DNA of 64,000 nt from Bacillota bacterium (GCA_012842395.1 DUSX01000017.1:186001-250000); one strand, 5' to 3'; positions 3 to 5,237 are shown, numbered from the stretch's first letter. The notes: generated by a model not told the origin, from the letters alone. A program made the numbers and translations.

Positions 3-155
3 TTGCGCGCAGCCGTTTTCTTGCAATACAAGGTCACCGAGTACGGCGGGCATGATGAGTCTGCTTCTCTGCTCTTGATGGCGGTAAGGATGTCGCTGCT
101 CGCACGACGAGGCGCCTGGGATTCGGACGGAGCCCGCCTCGAATTCAAGTGGTGA
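3..155 (+). CDS. C-terminal end of an unidentified protein (partial)
   Basis: An open frame enters from the left edge and gives 50 residues ending ARLEFKW before TGA. The start lies outside the window. The end overlaps the stop of the convergent protease gene by about 11 bp, as is common for tail-to-tail neighbours. No motif is recognisable, and the fragment could be chance open frame in GC-rich DNA. Confidence 0.35.
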   Translation: MRAAVFLQYKVTEYGGHDESASLLLMAVRMSLLARRGAWDSDGARLEFKW

Positions 156-1236
156 CGCCCAGAGCGTCCAACACGCTGGTCATTCTATTGTAGATCGTCG
201 ATCTATCGGAGCCGGCGAACAAGAGGCCCACCGCCCGCACCTCGGCGTCCACTAGGACCGACCCGGAATCGCCTCCGTCAGCCATTGGGCTCGTCACGAT
301 CTGATCCCTGAAAATCGCCGTGACGTTGCCAGAGTATACCACCCTAACCGTCGTGTCGACCGATGTTATTTCGCCGGTCGTCACCCCCGTTGTCCGGCCG
401 CTCTTTCTCACCGCCATTCCGAGCTCCGGCTCGGTCACGCCCCGGAGCTCGCCCAAGTCAAGGATAGATGGTTCAATGGAGTCGGGGCGGAGCGGCCTGG
501 CGAGCGCCGCGTCCACGGTGTTCGCCGCAAACGGGAACTGCCTTATTACTATCTCGACGCGCGCCGACGTTCCGGTCGCGCGCAGCCAGTTGTTCATCGC
601 CTTCTCGGCGGCCCTCGAGGCCATGCATGCAGGCACCCTGCCGGACATATGAATCGGCACAAACCTTTCCAGGACAGCTATGCGGTCCCGCTCGACCGTC
701 CCCCCGTCGGCCGCTCCCGGCTGGACGATCGGGTCGCCCGCCCTTGCCCTGCCATCGCGACCCGAAGTCGCATTTGCCAGCACATGGTTGCACGAGAGGA
801 TGAAAGGCTCGCCCGTTTTATTGTCCCATACGACCGCCCCAAATGTGCCGGCTGTCGTCTGATAGTGCCCTATGCTCACGCCCGGCCGCGCCGGGCGCAT
901 CCGCTCCAGCCTGCGTGCACATGAGCCCGAGGTCGGGGCGCCGACCGTGCTGCTCACGTTCTCCTCCCCATGGTCAGCAGCACCCACGCGAGCTCCAAGG
1001 AAACGTATCTCTCCGACCTCCACCACATCGGTGGGGATCCCACGCACTTCGGCGGGCACCATGTCCTGAGCCTCGAGGACCCTTCCCGGAACCTTCTGCT
1101 TCACGAGGACCACGATGCACTCAGCGGAAGTCCGCACGCCAGCTGTGGCCTTGTATCCACGCCCCACGCCTACAACGTTGGGCAGGCTCATCAGTCTCAA
1201 GGTCTCGTCCTCGAGGACACGGGATATTCGGGCCAT
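145..1236 (-). CDS. Trypsin-like serine protease
   Basis: A 363-residue protein with a trypsin-fold (S1-like) protease domain. The N-terminal 90 residues look like the lead-in seen in bacterial Nal1-type or chymotrypsin-like peptidases. His151 in SCNHV is the likely catalytic histidine, Asp242 in NTVDAAL a plausible acid, and Ser324 in GGDSGS the nucleophile. No clear signal peptide is seen, so its location is uncertain. The ATG is preceded by GAGGTGATT at normal distance. It lies 59 bp after the subtilisin-like gene on the same strand, so the two are probably co-transcribed. The substrate is unknown. Confidence 0.8.
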   Translation of the reverse strand: MARISRVLEDETLRLMSLPNVVGVGRGYKATAGVRTSAECIVVLVKQKVPGRVLEAQDMVPAEVRGIPTDVVEVGEIRFLGARVGAADHGEENVSSTVGAPTSGSCARRLERMRPARPGVSIGHYQTTAGTFGAVVWDNKTGEPFILSCNHVLANATSGRDGRARAGDPIVQPGAADGGTVERDRIAVLERFVPIHMSGRVPACMASRAAEKAMNNWLRATGTSARVEIVIRQFPFAANTVDAALARPLRPDSIEPSILDLGELRGVTEPELGMAVRKSGRTTGVTTGEITSVDTTVRVVYSGNVTAIFRDQIVTSPMADGGDSGSVLVDAEVRAVGLLFAGSDRSTIYNRMTSVLDALGVTT

Positions 1237-1295: not shown

Positions 1296-2477
1296 CTAGG
1301 CGGACAGGCGCACGCGTGTTACTGCCGCGCCTGCGTTCACCACGCCCGACCCTTGTTGATCTGGAGAGAACCCTGGCAGCTTGGTAGCCGTCCGGCACAG
1401 AACCTCTCGAACACCATCTCTCGCGAGCCCAGGGGAGATGGAGAGGAGCAAAGCCGCGGCTCCCGTCACATGAGGGCATGCCATGGACGTCCCGGTCAGG
1501 CTCTTGTAACCGCCCTCCCTGTACGTCGAGTAGATGTCTTCCCCTGGAGCAGCCATCGCCACCTGCTCGCCCGAGTTGCTGAACGCCGCGATCCGGTCGT
1601 CGCGGGTTGAAGCGGCGACGGCAATGACGTTGGGGTCGCGGGCCGGATAGAGCACGTTGTCGCGTCTGCCGTCGTTGCCAGCGGCGGCTACCATGATGAT
1701 GCCGGTTTGCGCCGCCTTCTGGATAGCCATCGCCAGGGCTTTACTGGAGTCGATCGTCCCGAAGCTCATGTTGATGATGTGCACGCGGTTCGCGATGCAC
1801 CATTCCACGCCCTGCACGATATCGGATACCTGCCCCTGTCCTTTCGAGTCAAACGCCTTGACTGCGTACAGCCTTGCTTCGGGGGCAACGCCCACGACCC
1901 CGAGATCGTTGTTGCAAGCGGCGATGATGCCCGCCACGTGGGTGCCGTGGCCGTTGTCATCGATGACGTTCGTCGTCTCGTTGATGCAATCGAAGCCGCC
2001 GTCGATGTTGGCTTTGAGGTCCGGGTGGTTCATGTCAATTCCCGTGTCAAGGACGGCCACACGCACACCTCTGCCGCTCGCATGGGCCCACGCCTCGGGC
2101 GCCCGGACCTTGGCGATTCCCCACGGGACTATCTGCTGGCGCGGACGCGGGCGCGGTCTCGGGACGAAAAAGCAAGCGCTGTTTATGGAGATGACGAGGT
2201 CGTCCTCGACCCACGCCACCTCGCCCGCGCGCGAAAGGAGGCCCATGGCCGTAGCTTCCTCGGGGAAAACGCATGCAGCGCCGTTGACGATCGGCAGTTG
2301 CTTCTTGAGCTTTCCTCCGCACTCCTCAACTATGGAGCGGACCCTGTCAGGGTCCACGTCGGGCTTGAACAACACGATCTTGCGGACGGGCCGGGGCCCT
2401 GTGTCCCGTGCGCTCTGGCGCAGTCTGCGCACGAGAGCGGCAAGTGCCATGAGGTAGACGACATAACTCGGGAGCAT
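1296..2477 (-). CDS. Subtilisin-like serine protease (S8 family)
   Basis: A 393-residue subtilase with the full triad: Asp144 in AVLDTGID, His177 in GHGTHVAG and Ser331 in GTSMACPH, with Asn268 as the oxyanion residue. Residues about 30-95 look like an I9-type inhibitor propeptide, so the enzyme is probably made as a zymogen. The N-terminus (LPSYVVYLMALAALV) is hydrophobic and may be a short signal or anchor. The start is an ATG behind GGAGG. The length is normal for a bacterial S8 protease. It lies just downstream of three tiny membrane-protein genes on the same strand. Confidence 0.9.
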   Translation of the reverse strand: MLPSYVVYLMALAALVRRLRQSARDTGPRPVRKIVLFKPDVDPDRVRSIVEECGGKLKKQLPIVNGAACVFPEEATAMGLLSRAGEVAWVEDDLVISINSACFFVPRPRPRPRQQIVPWGIAKVRAPEAWAHASGRGVRVAVLDTGIDMNHPDLKANIDGGFDCINETTNVIDDNGHGTHVAGIIAACNNDLGVVGVAPEARLYAVKAFDSKGQGQVSDIVQGVEWCIANRVHIINMSFGTIDSSKALAMAIQKAAQTGIIMVAAAGNDGRRDNVLYPARDPNVIAVAASTRDDRIAAFSNSGEQVAMAAPGEDIYSTYREGGYKSLTGTSMACPHVTGAAALLLSISPGLARDGVREVLCRTATKLPGFSPDQQGSGVVNAGAAVTRVRLSA

Positions 2478-2643: not shown

Positions 2644-2757
2644 TCATGCTCGCCGGGCATAGCTTGCGGCGAGCGTTGTGGAGAACGCCACGAGCTGCGG
2701 CAGCAACAGAACGAACAGGAGTATGATGATCCACCAGTGTTCGAGTTGCTGTACCAC
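2644..2757 (-). CDS. 37-residue single-pass membrane microprotein (paralogue 1)
   Basis: A GTG-started frame of 37 residues beginning MVQQLEHWW, followed by the hydrophobic run IIILLFVLLLP and a tail ending SYARRA. GGAGGAG lies 7 nt before the GTG, strong support for translation. It shares the WWIIILLF core with the next two genes upstream but has a diverged C-terminus without the PWSK ending. It reads as a single transmembrane helix with a short N-terminus. The function is unknown. The hydrophobic pattern recalls small spore-associated YjcZ-type peptides, but I cannot show homology. Confidence 0.7.
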   Translation of the reverse strand: MVQQLEHWWIIILLFVLLLPQLVAFSTTLAASYARRA

Positions 2758-2805
2758 CTTTTTGCTCCTCCCCGGTTCCCCGGCTTCACCCGCCCGCCGG
2801 ACGCG

Positions 2806-2913
2806 TCACGCGTTCTTGCTCCACGGGAAGAACGGGAAGAAGATGAGGAACATTGGGATGAGGAGGATGAAGAGCAATATGATTATCCACCAGAATTCGA
2901 GCTCCTGGGTCAT
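2806..2913 (-). CDS. 35-residue single-pass membrane microprotein (paralogue 2)
   Basis: An ATG-started frame of 35 residues starting MTQELEFWWIIILLF and ending FPWSKNA. The centre is one long hydrophobic helix with Pro20 near its middle. An AAAGGGGGG site lies just upstream. It is nearly identical in length and sequence to the gene at 3046-3153, with most differences conservative (I/V, F/L), which suggests selection on the protein. The function is unknown. Confidence 0.75.
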   Translation of the reverse strand: MTQELEFWWIIILLFILLIPMFLIFFPFFPWSKNA

Positions 2914-3045
2914 GAGAAGCCCCCCTTTCCTCACTTTTCATGAGGTTCCGCACCGTCTGGCTCTAGCCCACGCCGGGCCGACCCGCCGGACGGACCACCG
3001 GATACTCCCGTTGCCCTGCCTCCCCGCGTGCAGGCCTTCATGGGA

Positions 3046-3153
3046 TCAGGCCTTCTTGCTCCAAGGGAAGAGCGGGAAGAAGACCAGGAACATCGGGATG
3101 AGCAGGACGAACAGCAGTATGATTATCCACCAGAACTCGATCTCTTGGGTCAC
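3046..3153 (-). CDS. 35-residue single-pass membrane microprotein (paralogue 3)
   Basis: A GTG-started frame of 35 residues, MTQEIEFWWIIILLF onward, ending FPWSKKA. GGGAGGT sits 7 nt upstream of the GTG. An ATG a few bases further upstream is in a different frame and gives no family match, so the GTG is preferred. It is the first of three tandem paralogues in transcription order. Nothing recognisable lies in the 270 bp between it and the upstream 67-residue gene. Confidence 0.75.
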   Translation of the reverse strand: MTQEIEFWWIIILLFVLLIPMFLVFFPLFPWSKKA

Positions 3154-3424
3154 CTGTCATACCTCCCTTCGTCTCCATGCGCAGGGGCACCTGAAGGACC
3201 CACCGTCCTTCCTTCTTCGTGCCTAACGACGTCCCCGCCCGCGCGCGATCGCTCCATACGACCCCCGCCTCGCTACTATCATATGGAGCGCCGCCCGGGT
3301 TTGCTCCTCGCCACGACACCAGCTCTCATCTCACCGGCTCCATCGCACGCCCGATCCAGGCGTTGGCAGACGCCCAGCCCGGCCCAGGAGGTCCGCCACA
3401 GGTCGTCCTGGGCTGCACGCGCCT

Positions 3425-3628
3425 CTACTTGGCGTCGGTGTACAGGCCGCCCGAGAACGGCGGGCCGTCTCCGGATACAGGTGGGGGCGGGACGGCTGGC
3501 GACGGAACGAAGAACGCGAGGATCGCGGCTACCAAGAAGAATATGCTGCCCAAAAGGTCGAGAACGTCTATGATCCTGTCCAGACTGGTCTGCTCCGCAA
3601 CCCTTCCTCGTAGTCTTTTGAGGAGCAC
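3425..3628 (-). CDS. Small membrane protein, 67 residues, unknown function
   Basis: A GTG start behind GAGGAGG gives VLLKRLRGRVAEQ, then a hydrophobic segment (LLGSIFFLVAAILAFFV) and a proline- and glycine-rich tail ending LYTDAK. One transmembrane helix is predicted by eye, with a basic N-terminus and an extended tail. A longer in-frame version starting near 3679 lacks a ribosome site. It follows the 121-residue gene by 57 bp and probably belongs to the same transcript as the microproteins. Confidence 0.6.
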   Translation of the reverse strand: MLLKRLRGRVAEQTSLDRIIDVLDLLGSIFFLVAAILAFFVPSPAVPPPPVSGDGPPFSGGLYTDAK

Positions 3629-3685
3629 GTCGTGGTCACCTCCTCGAAGGCGACCCTCTCCAAGGCGCGAGCACCTCATCCCTCC

Positions 3686-4051
3686 TTATCCCTCGGCATG
3701 CGGGACGCCCAGATCGCCACCGTCCACCGGGCGCGACGAGAGAGCGTCCTTGACCTCCGCAGGCACGTCTTGCGCGCTCAGGTCAGCGACCGCCTGGAGA
3801 ACGACGCTCACGAGTTGACGTCGGGTTTCCTCGGGCATTGCGGCGAGTAGCCCCTGAGCGATCTTCGTCAATTCAAGAGGGTCAAAAAGCTGAGACGTAG
3901 AGTAACCAAACCCGCTCAGAAGGCCTTTGAGCGTCTCCTGGTTTTCAGGCGAGATCCCCGCTTCACGGAGGATCCCCGCAAGCGACCCTCCCTGGTTTTC
4001 CTGAAGACCCTTGCGGATTCTAGCTACAAGTTCCTCCATGTCGTTCGCCAT
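3686..4051 (-). CDS. Hypothetical helical protein, 121 residues
   Basis: The protein starts MANDMEELVARIRKGLQ and appears soluble and largely alpha-helical, with a Gly/Phe/Tyr stretch (LLSGFGYSTSQLF) in the middle and an acidic end. GGAAGGTGGG precedes the ATG at slightly long spacing. It is the first gene of the minus-strand cluster leading to the microproteins and proteases, and it is divergent from the 251-residue coiled-coil gene. I recognise no family. Confidence 0.6.
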   Translation of the reverse strand: MANDMEELVARIRKGLQENQGGSLAGILREAGISPENQETLKGLLSGFGYSTSQLFDPLELTKIAQGLLAAMPEETRRQLVSVVLQAVADLSAQDVPAEVKDALSSRPVDGGDLGVPHAEG

Positions 4052-4309
4052 GTGTGTTATGTCCCACCTTCCCGGCCTGGTGCTTCCCGCACGGACCGGA
4101 GTACTATGGCAGGGCGGTGCCCTGCGCTGATAGATCGTATTCGGATCGGGGTGCTTTGGTGAAGAGGAACAGCCGGCCTAAGGCTGCCAGCGCCTACGGG
4201 GGAAGTGGGAGACCTGCGCCGCCTCGCACAGTTGTGAGCCAGCCTCATATAATGTAGTGCCGACCGTACGAGACTCTACGGGTATAGATAGGCAGCGGGG
4301 TGGTTTTCC

Positions 4310-5065
4310 ATGGAGGTTCAGGATACCAGGGATTCCCGTCGAGAGATACAGACGTTACAGGAGGCGGTCGCCCAGCAGACCTTGATACTGCAACGGTTGG
4401 AGCGAGGCCTCAAAAGGCTCGAGGAATCTTACGACAACGTGTCGTTGAGGCTCGAAGCCATCGAAACCGCCCGGCAAGGAAACGGCCCGGGGGGCGCGGC
4501 CCTTGCGCCTGAGAAGGGGCAGGCCGGAAACACCGGGAACGCTGCAAAACCCACCGTCGGGAACAGGGAGTACATGCGAGATCGGGCTTCCCGCGCGCAC
4601 AGCAGCCCGGCCGCCACGAACGTCCCAGAGGCCGTGAACGCCCCCGCCGCTAACCCCCGACCACCCGAACCCGGCGAACCCACGCAAGGCGACGGCGGAC
4701 AAAGCGAGACCCCGGCAAGGCCCGGCACGCCGGCTTCGCGCCCGGATCTGCTCGCCCGTGCGAAGGTAGCCATCCGCAGCGCCATCGCCGACGGCACCGT
4801 GAACAACACTTTGGACAAGGTCCAATCCTCGCTCAAGCTGGCTGACGAGGCAGCGGGGGCTCTTGCCCAGATCAGCGCGCTTGTCAAGTCCTCGCTGACC
4901 GAAAGCGCAAGCTTACAGGGATCCGGACCGCCTCCCATCCCGGGCGGCTCCATCACGCTCCTCCTGGAGCTTGCAAAGACGCCGCAGTTCCAAAGGTTTG
5001 CCGCGAGCATGCTCACGCAGTTCCTGAAAGATGCGGACCCGGCCGCTCGGGAGTCCACAGGCTAG
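4310..5065 (+). CDS. Hypothetical protein with N-terminal coiled coil, 251 residues
   Basis: Residues about 8-50 form a heptad-like coiled coil (EIQTLQEAVAQQTLILQRLE). Residues about 55-140 are a low-complexity linker rich in Pro, Ala and Gly. The C-terminal 110 residues are helical, with segments such as DKVQSSLKLADEAAGALAQI and a last amphipathic region (LLLELAKTPQFQRFAASML). There is no signal peptide or clear membrane segment. It is followed 61 bp later by a plus-strand microprotein related to the minus-strand trio, so the two may be co-expressed. Family unknown. Confidence 0.65.
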   Translation: MEVQDTRDSRREIQTLQEAVAQQTLILQRLERGLKRLEESYDNVSLRLEAIETARQGNGPGGAALAPEKGQAGNTGNAAKPTVGNREYMRDRASRAHSSPAATNVPEAVNAPAANPRPPEPGEPTQGDGGQSETPARPGTPASRPDLLARAKVAIRSAIADGTVNNTLDKVQSSLKLADEAAGALAQISALVKSSLTESASLQGSGPPPIPGGSITLLLELAKTPQFQRFAASMLTQFLKDADPAARESTG

Positions 5066-5126
5066 CCTGACCGGACCCAACCGAACCGGGGCGCGACCTG
5101 CCCGACTTCGAAAGGAGGTAGCGTAG

Positions 5127-5237
5127 ATGACCCAGGAATTCTATACCATAATGTGGATAATCCTCATCTGCCTCATCGTATTCATTCCCATCATATTCCT
5201 GTTCTTCTTCATCCCGCTTGGCTCGAAGGCGAACTGA
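5127..5237 (+). CDS. 36-residue single-pass membrane microprotein (plus-strand relative)
   Basis: An ATG 6 nt after AAAGGAGGTA gives 36 residues starting MTQEFYTIMWIILICLIVF and ending PLGSKAN. The MTQE start, the Trp-Ile-Ile onset of the helix, the central Pro and the Ser-Lys near the end match the minus-strand trio, although the helix itself has diverged. It lies between the coiled-coil gene and a perfect 17-bp hairpin. Function unknown. Confidence 0.75.
   Translation: MTQEFYTIMWIILICLIVFIPIIFLFFFIPLGSKAN

Follow-up and report, generated by a model that had tools for sequence, protein, structure and literature searches.

P1 to P4, four very short genes in the window (the whole 64-kb stretch of DNA that we analyzed), are real, conserved genes under purifying selection, and they probably encode single-helix proteins that belong to the spore envelope and are controlled by sigma-K. 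Most of our confidence in this reading concerns the assignment to sporulation; a structural role in the envelope as such we rate slightly below an even chance. The assessment draws on what we computed here: the conservation of the genes and the selection on them, a predicted helix, a footprinted promoter, the sharing of that promoter type with a SPOCS-domain protein, and the gene neighborhood.

Four microprotein genes in an undescribed neighborhood

A preliminary description of the window had proposed a family of duplicated single-helix microproteins encoded by four short open reading frames (ORFs) at 2644-5237, each with a well-placed Shine-Dalgarno (SD) sequence. All four ORFs are present at these positions and encode 35 to 37 aa, a strong and well-spaced SD precedes each of P1, P2, P3, and P4, and the proposed family is supported. 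The P1-P2-P3 array has a subtilase gene on one side and, on the other, p84, p121, and p251-P4, which is divergent. The microproteins sit in an undescribed neighborhood of subtilase, p121, p251, and p84; searches of Pfam, NCBIfam, PHROGs, PADLOC, and PDB sequences returned no family for P1 to P4, p121, p251, or p84. The genes are as follows.

145-1236, minus strand: trypsin-like/NAL1-type serine protease, downstream of the subtilase
1296-2477, minus strand: S8 subtilase (Pfam PF00082, 9.8e-63), with an N-terminal hydrophobic segment and a propeptide
2644-2757, minus strand: P3 microprotein, GTG start, 37 aa, divergent C terminus, MVQQLEHWWIIILLFVLLLPQLVAFSTTLAASYARRA; the array's conserved third gene in both genera
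2806-2913, minus strand: P2 microprotein, ATG start, 35 aa, MTQELEFWWIIILLFILLIPMFLIFFPFFPWSKNA; conserved array member
3046-3153, minus strand: P1 microprotein, GTG start, 35 aa, MTQEIEFWWIIILLFVLLIPMFLVFFPLFPWSKKA; orthologues with the same SD and position, purifying selection
3425-3628, minus strand: p84, small membrane protein; likely real start GTG 3628, 67 aa
3686-4051, minus strand: p121, 121 aa, predicted to be helical and soluble, outside any known family; core of the module
4310-5065, plus strand: p251, with an N-terminal coiled-coil-like part, a Pro-rich linker, and a conserved C-terminal domain
5127-5237, plus strand: P4 microprotein, ATG start, 36 aa, MTQEFYTIMWIILICLIVFIPIIFLFFFIPLGSKAN; directly 3' of p251, purifying selection

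The onset (M/V)xQExxxWxI given earlier for the family holds loosely. P3 begins VVQQL, with Q in place of E, and P4 has TQEFYTIMW, with one additional residue ahead of W; the corrected motif is M-x-Q-[EQ]-x4-5-W-I. Ser-Lys occurs near the C terminus of P1, P2, and P4, as had been claimed for three of the four proteins. For P2, the ATG at 2913 is supported by an SD, whereas the longer start at 2934 chosen by the ORF lister lacks that support. When we filtered the whole window for ORFs of 25 to 45 codons with an SD and a stretch with 17 of 18 residues hydrophobic, exactly P1 to P4 were recovered and nothing else; the same filter returned no ORF in any of 20 first-order Markov resamplings of the window. 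AlphaFold, applied to 16 sequences from the window and its relatives, predicts a single helix spanning residues 2 to 28, with a core pLDDT of about 95 for P1. Tryptic mass spectrometry would be nearly blind to these sequences; P1, for example, contains Lys at its end and nowhere else.

The subtilase contains the catalytic motifs DTG, HGTH, and GTSMA, and its alignment to pro-subtilisin E begins at residue 45. A PADLOC match labeled subtilase reflects shared fold only, and nothing else suggests phage defense. The serine protease at 145-1236 matches PF25608 (1.6e-5) and PF13365 (1.3e-4), both under the cutoff, and was seen only in the window's own bacterial family, in both genera. AlphaFold predicts p121 to be all-helical, albeit in a poor model (pLDDT 52). 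Its best PDB profile match, to the short helical protein 7bpn, covers only 37 positions (3.9e-6) and was not taken as homology.

Conservation and selection

Within the genus, a profile of P1 to P4 found four to five members in every one of the other five genomes; in the sister genus, four of the seven genomes had three members each. This result bears out the expectation of homologous short frames in related genomes. The P1-P2-P3 array is present in five of six genus genomes and in four of seven from the sister genus. P1 orthologues with the same SD and position occur in four of the five other genus genomes and in sister-genus genomes; P1 was not detected in the remaining genus member, G004. 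With that exception, the gene order P1-P2-P3, the GTG/ATG/GTG starts, and the SDs are all kept within the genus. P4 is located 3' of p251 in all four relatives read.

Interspecies differences at codon positions 1, 2, and 3, summed over pairs, were 45/4/53 for P1, 96/22/58 for P2, 91/33/80 for P3, and 83/52/124 for P4. Rather than being spread equally over codon positions, the pattern that the preliminary description had set against its own proposal, changes were fewest at position 2 in the P1 to P4 frames. In most interspecies pairs dN was below dS; the exceptions, few in number, were P2 and P3 pairs whose dS was very low. A comparison of paralogues within the window's own genome, which the same description had suggested, gave a dN of 0.06 and a dS of 0.67 for P1 versus P2.

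Beyond these genomes, a contig scan with alignment A3 found only four metagenome-assembled genomes of the same genus, and the viral contigs searched held no relative of the microproteins. Weak profile matches in G018, in large ORFs of the G021 type, and in G037, G046, G056, and G058 were set aside, as they resemble pieces of unrelated membrane proteins or chance matches.

A sigma-K-type promoter upstream of the array

Two conserved elements upstream of the microprotein genes have the appearance of promoters.

3277-3304, minus strand: GCAAA-N14-CATATGATA, the sigma-K-type promoter that serves P1-P2-P3; footprint in two genera
4246-4254, plus strand: conserved CATATAATG box upstream of p251-P4

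The array promoter ends 124 nt upstream of the P1 start. Apart from the SD region, the sole block upstream of P1 conserved above background consists of GGAGCAAA, 14 nt, and CATATNATAGTA; this footprint (GGAGCAAA...CATATTATAGTA) is kept in both genera though its flanks have diverged, and its general form is CA[AC]-N14-15-CATATNATA. A scan for housekeeping promoters found none at this site. Between P1, P2, and P3 there is no second conserved promoter-like block; therefore, the three genes are probably carried on one transcript. In the CATATAATG box, TCATATAATGTA-TGCCG is invariant in four genus members and the sister genus has CATATAATATAATGC; the box is probably a second sporulation promoter, for p251-P4.

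Similar promoters lie upstream of microprotein homologues in distant families, including Moorella, with a CAAC/CACC-like -35 and CATATNATA as the -10; of the 12 aligned promoters, 11 have C at -18 relative to the -10 box. Overall, the microprotein promoters have CA[AC][AC] at -35 and CATATNATA at -10.

In model organisms, spoIVA is a sigma-E gene, spoVFA is controlled by sigma-K, and SASP genes are controlled by sigma-G, and we assigned the sigma factor by footprinting these marker genes in the same genomes. The spoIVA footprint was AATAATC with CATATACATT, which is sigma-E-like; that of spoVFA was GGCACC with CATATATTA, sigma-K-like and the same in Moorella; and the SASP genes had a CATA -35. 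Published rules separate the two mother-cell types by the -35, which holds 'AC' under sigma-K and 'ATA' under sigma-E while the -10 boxes are similar (PMC3789822), and describe the sigma-K promoter as a 5-nt and a 10-nt block separated by 14 to 16 nt (PMC517825). The microprotein promoters combine an AC-type -35, a gap in this range, and a CATANNNTA-like -10. The spoVFA spacing is two bases longer than theirs; despite this difference, sigma-K is the best fit for the array promoter. Because the -10 of sigma-E is almost the same as that of sigma-K, control by sigma-E is a possible alternative.

The leader between the array promoter and P1 (3154-3276, minus strand) contains a second conserved stretch, GGTCCTTCAGGCGCC-CTGCGCA, which in four members of the genus lies a short way upstream of the SD.

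Promoter-pattern search of the genome

We searched the window's own genome with promoter patterns, blind to protein sequence. A first, stricter pattern found P1 only, and the relaxed pattern KCAH-N15-CATANNATA gave seven matches, compared to three in the control. Downstream of the seven lie the P1 array and two unlinked microprotein genes. One of these, a fifth family member also seen earlier by profile, encodes 41 aa (MAEITKPKGNWFDGGWWWIIILIAIILIPLFFIFFLFPLGG; G000:C17:260779-260904, minus strand; L058 10780-10905) about 10.8 kb past the right end of the window, and its own promoter, GTGTCACC...CATATGATA, recurs in all six genus genomes. The other, a sixth member of 40 aa (MADITKPGGGGGSWWWIIIIVIIVILILCCCFCFFPIFSE, MADITKPGGGGGSWWWIIII...; locus L074, promoter at G000:C17:3635-3662), was missed by every profile and found through the promoter pattern only. 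The genome therefore holds up to six paralogues, and the motif is able to find microproteins that a profile search misses.

Another match lies upstream of a protein with four SPOCS domains (PF12673, 5.4e-48), and another upstream of a 71-aa membrane protein (L077, L173, L168, L169), which has two helices, belongs to no family known so far, and is a candidate spore protein. The remaining matches precede a PucR-like regulator, recognized by eye, and a site without a convincing gene; some matches have no spore-related gene downstream. SPOCS domains are a hallmark of the SipL group of spore-coat morphogenetic proteins. The promoters of the SPOCS and 71-aa genes recur in both genera: in nine related genomes the promoters recur upstream of the SPOCS, 71-aa, and WWW-type microprotein genes, and the gene downstream of the SPOCS promoter was read in 9 of 10 genomes in all. 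The WWW-type form of the sister genus (e.g., MTDISKPNPSWCGGSWWWIIIIIIIICIVCFCLFGI) carries the same promoter type. Against the model of the CsxC exosporium family, the SPOCS protein scores 1e-4, a weak similarity far under the cutoff; CsxC was identified in the exosporium of C. sporogenes (PMC4942563).

Spread across families

Outside the window's own family, a reshuffled version of this gene set surrounds the microproteins in families f15 (Moorella), f121, and f93, and in f30 together with p121. Subtilase, p121, and microprotein genes are closely packed neighbors in f1, f15, f93, f121, and f39. Homologues of p84 adjoin p121 or microproteins in other families, and those of p251 lie beside p121 or the subtilase. 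Among 399 genomes of the phylum, the p121 profile matched 49 and the microprotein profile 25; 21 of these 25 also have p121. Counted by genus (n = 267), p121 occurs in 23, microproteins in 10, and both in 7 (hypergeometric p = 1.4e-6, uncorrected for kinship between genera).

As an independent test, we inspected the surroundings of p121 in genomes without a match to the microprotein profile. In eight of these (G036, G156, G185, G188, G346, G093, G079, and G275), Trp-rich microproteins of the WW type with clear SDs lie near p121 (e.g., MTEVTRSGCNNWWWIFIVIFIIILLLCCCCSVFFAF and MADVASRGLGFFWWWIIIIIIIIIIFFCCFCFFPFRVVATDA), and those of G188 and G346 have a promoter of the GTGTCACC-N14-CATATTATA type. 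In five f39 genomes, subtilase, p121, and p251 occur together with no microprotein detected nearby, which argues that the microproteins are not obligate protease subunits.

The acetyl-CoA synthase of carrier G028 differs from PDB 1oao, which is from Moorella thermoacetica, at only a few of 729 positions; judged by this protein, the carrier is a Moorella. In Moorella genomes, a gene for a methyl-accepting chemotaxis protein (L059 9649-11355) lies just beside p121. SpoIVA is present in all 25 microprotein carriers but also in 44 of the 45 genomes compared, and its presence is therefore uninformative as a test of sporulation.

Comparison with known small spore proteins and proteases

The nearest likeness is to the YjcZ proteins (tiny_TM_bacill; TIGR01732, PF09680), which are tiny single-helix proteins found in several copies per genome in endospore formers. 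P1 to P4 are likewise very short, with one predicted membrane helix (35 to 37 aa, helix 2 to 28), and some unlinked microprotein paralogues share with YjcZ a Gly-rich stretch ahead of the helix. Neither YjcZ model matched the microproteins of the window or the unlinked ones, whereas a YjcZ-like string used as a positive control scored 2e-14 (TIGR01732) and 1e-12 (PF09680); given this working control, the microproteins are not YjcZ members. In their helix, an Ile run and two or three paired or tripled Trp residues replace the FALIVVLFILLIIVG type of YjcZ, and, unlike YjcZ, they are tied to the subtilase/p121/p251 neighborhood. We therefore file P1 to P4 and their kin as a separate, unnamed Trp-Ile-rich family of probable sporulation microproteins with its own conserved neighborhood. 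By analogy, the best explanation is that they work like the YjcZ tiny proteins of Bacilli without belonging to them.

SpoVM and CmpA of Bacillus are small proteins of coat and cortex assembly that are expressed in the mother cell and work at the surface of the forespore. SpoVM, which sigma-E controls, is an amphipathic protein lying on the membrane. The microproteins resemble both in size and in the mother-cell expression and forespore-surface action proposed for them. They are set apart from SpoVM, as so described, in being uniformly hydrophobic and predicted to span the membrane and in having a sigma-K-type promoter. SPOCS proteins, as in SipL and CsxC, have no sequence relation to the microproteins; the SPOCS protein shares their promoter type and is probably co-expressed, as a co-regulated partner only. 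The window subtilase has the same catalytic fold as the Csp germination proteases and weakly matches the CspBA and CspC models; however, it falls far below the Csp cutoffs, and both its propeptide and the hydrophobic segment at its N terminus are its own.

Proposed role and alternatives

The preliminary description had offered spore components, membrane-protease regulators, and transporter regulators as possible functions. Spore components are favored because the conserved sigma-K-type promoter is shared with the coat-type SPOCS protein and the unlinked microproteins; nothing points to a transporter. P1 to P4 would be made in the mother cell late in sporulation under sigma-K, p251-P4 possibly from another promoter of similar kind. 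Each microprotein would form a single helix of ~25 residues that has its Trp pair close to the N terminus and carries a short basic tail. This helix would insert into the outer membrane of the forespore or into a layer derived from the mother cell, and the paralogues would pack side by side to give the coat or exosporium a hydrophobic layer. Subtilase, p121, p251, and p84 would belong to the same late program, the subtilase probably processing coat or exosporium components around the microprotein layer. The expression, location, packing, and protease role are what we infer from these patterns; a hydrophobic helix alone does not show a structural role.

The protease proposal retains some force, in that the subtilase adjoins the microproteins in several families. 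It reads them as membrane regulators or anchors of the S8 subtilase that bind the hydrophobic segment at its N terminus and govern how it matures or where it is placed; the tight clustering with subtilase and p121 in the five families named above and the presence of a membrane segment in both partners fit this. Yet no subtilase adjoins the unlinked paralogues in G016 or those near G000:C17:260900 and C17:3600, the f39 genomes carry subtilase-p121-p251 without a detectable microprotein, the window's genome has up to six paralogues, and association with a protease gene is accordingly not constant. We consider regulation of the subtilase unlikely, and a weaker reading than that of sporulation-envelope proteins.

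Holin-like peptides that permeabilize the mother-cell membrane under sigma-K timing, thereby releasing the spore, would share the promoter type, the small hydrophobic helix, the short basic tails, and the multiple copies. Such a lysis function seems improbable to us: the promoter type is that of a coat-type SPOCS protein, the conserved WWIII sequence and purifying selection go beyond the needs of membrane disruption, and neither PHROGs nor the viral contigs yielded a phage-type relative. The size, hydrophobicity, and tandem copies would also suit toxic peptides silenced by an antisense RNA, as in type I toxin-antitoxin systems. We found no sigma-70-like promoter on the opposite strand over the array (in a scan for that type only) and no Rfam family above threshold, and synteny and promoter are kept over several families, unlike mobile toxin-antitoxin loci; this explanation is very improbable. 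Finally, plus-strand ORFs of 141 and 182 aa run over the array, as expected in high-GC DNA, and the microprotein frames could be chance ORFs, or the real protein could lie on the opposite strand. This reading is refuted by the empty resampled windows, the conservation of codon position 2 in the microprotein frames, and SDs conserved in many species, and we give it practically no weight.

The spore-envelope reading of P1 to P4 can be extended, doubtfully, to one undescribed late-sporulation assembly system of the phylum, in which a membrane-anchored subtilase and its partners p121, p251, and p84 might build a spore layer of packed Trp-rich microproteins. If this is true, the layer could be one source of the unusual heat resistance seen in Moorella spores and others like them. 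Most spore-coat components outside Bacilli and Clostridium are still to be identified. A Moorella spore study detected no equivalents of SafA, CotE, SipL, or CotA by homology and calls these spores the most heat-resistant known in food spoilage (PMC8745062). The combined promoter and neighborhood signature exposes otherwise invisible genes of 30 to 45 residues and, for Moorella, which can be cultured, directly supplies a list of genes that are candidates for the coat.

The codons TGG TGG ATA ATC ATA of P1 and P2 are invariant at the DNA level across the genus. ATA is expected to be rare in this GC-rich genome, yet it is kept in this run, possibly because translation pauses there or because the DNA or RNA is under some other constraint.
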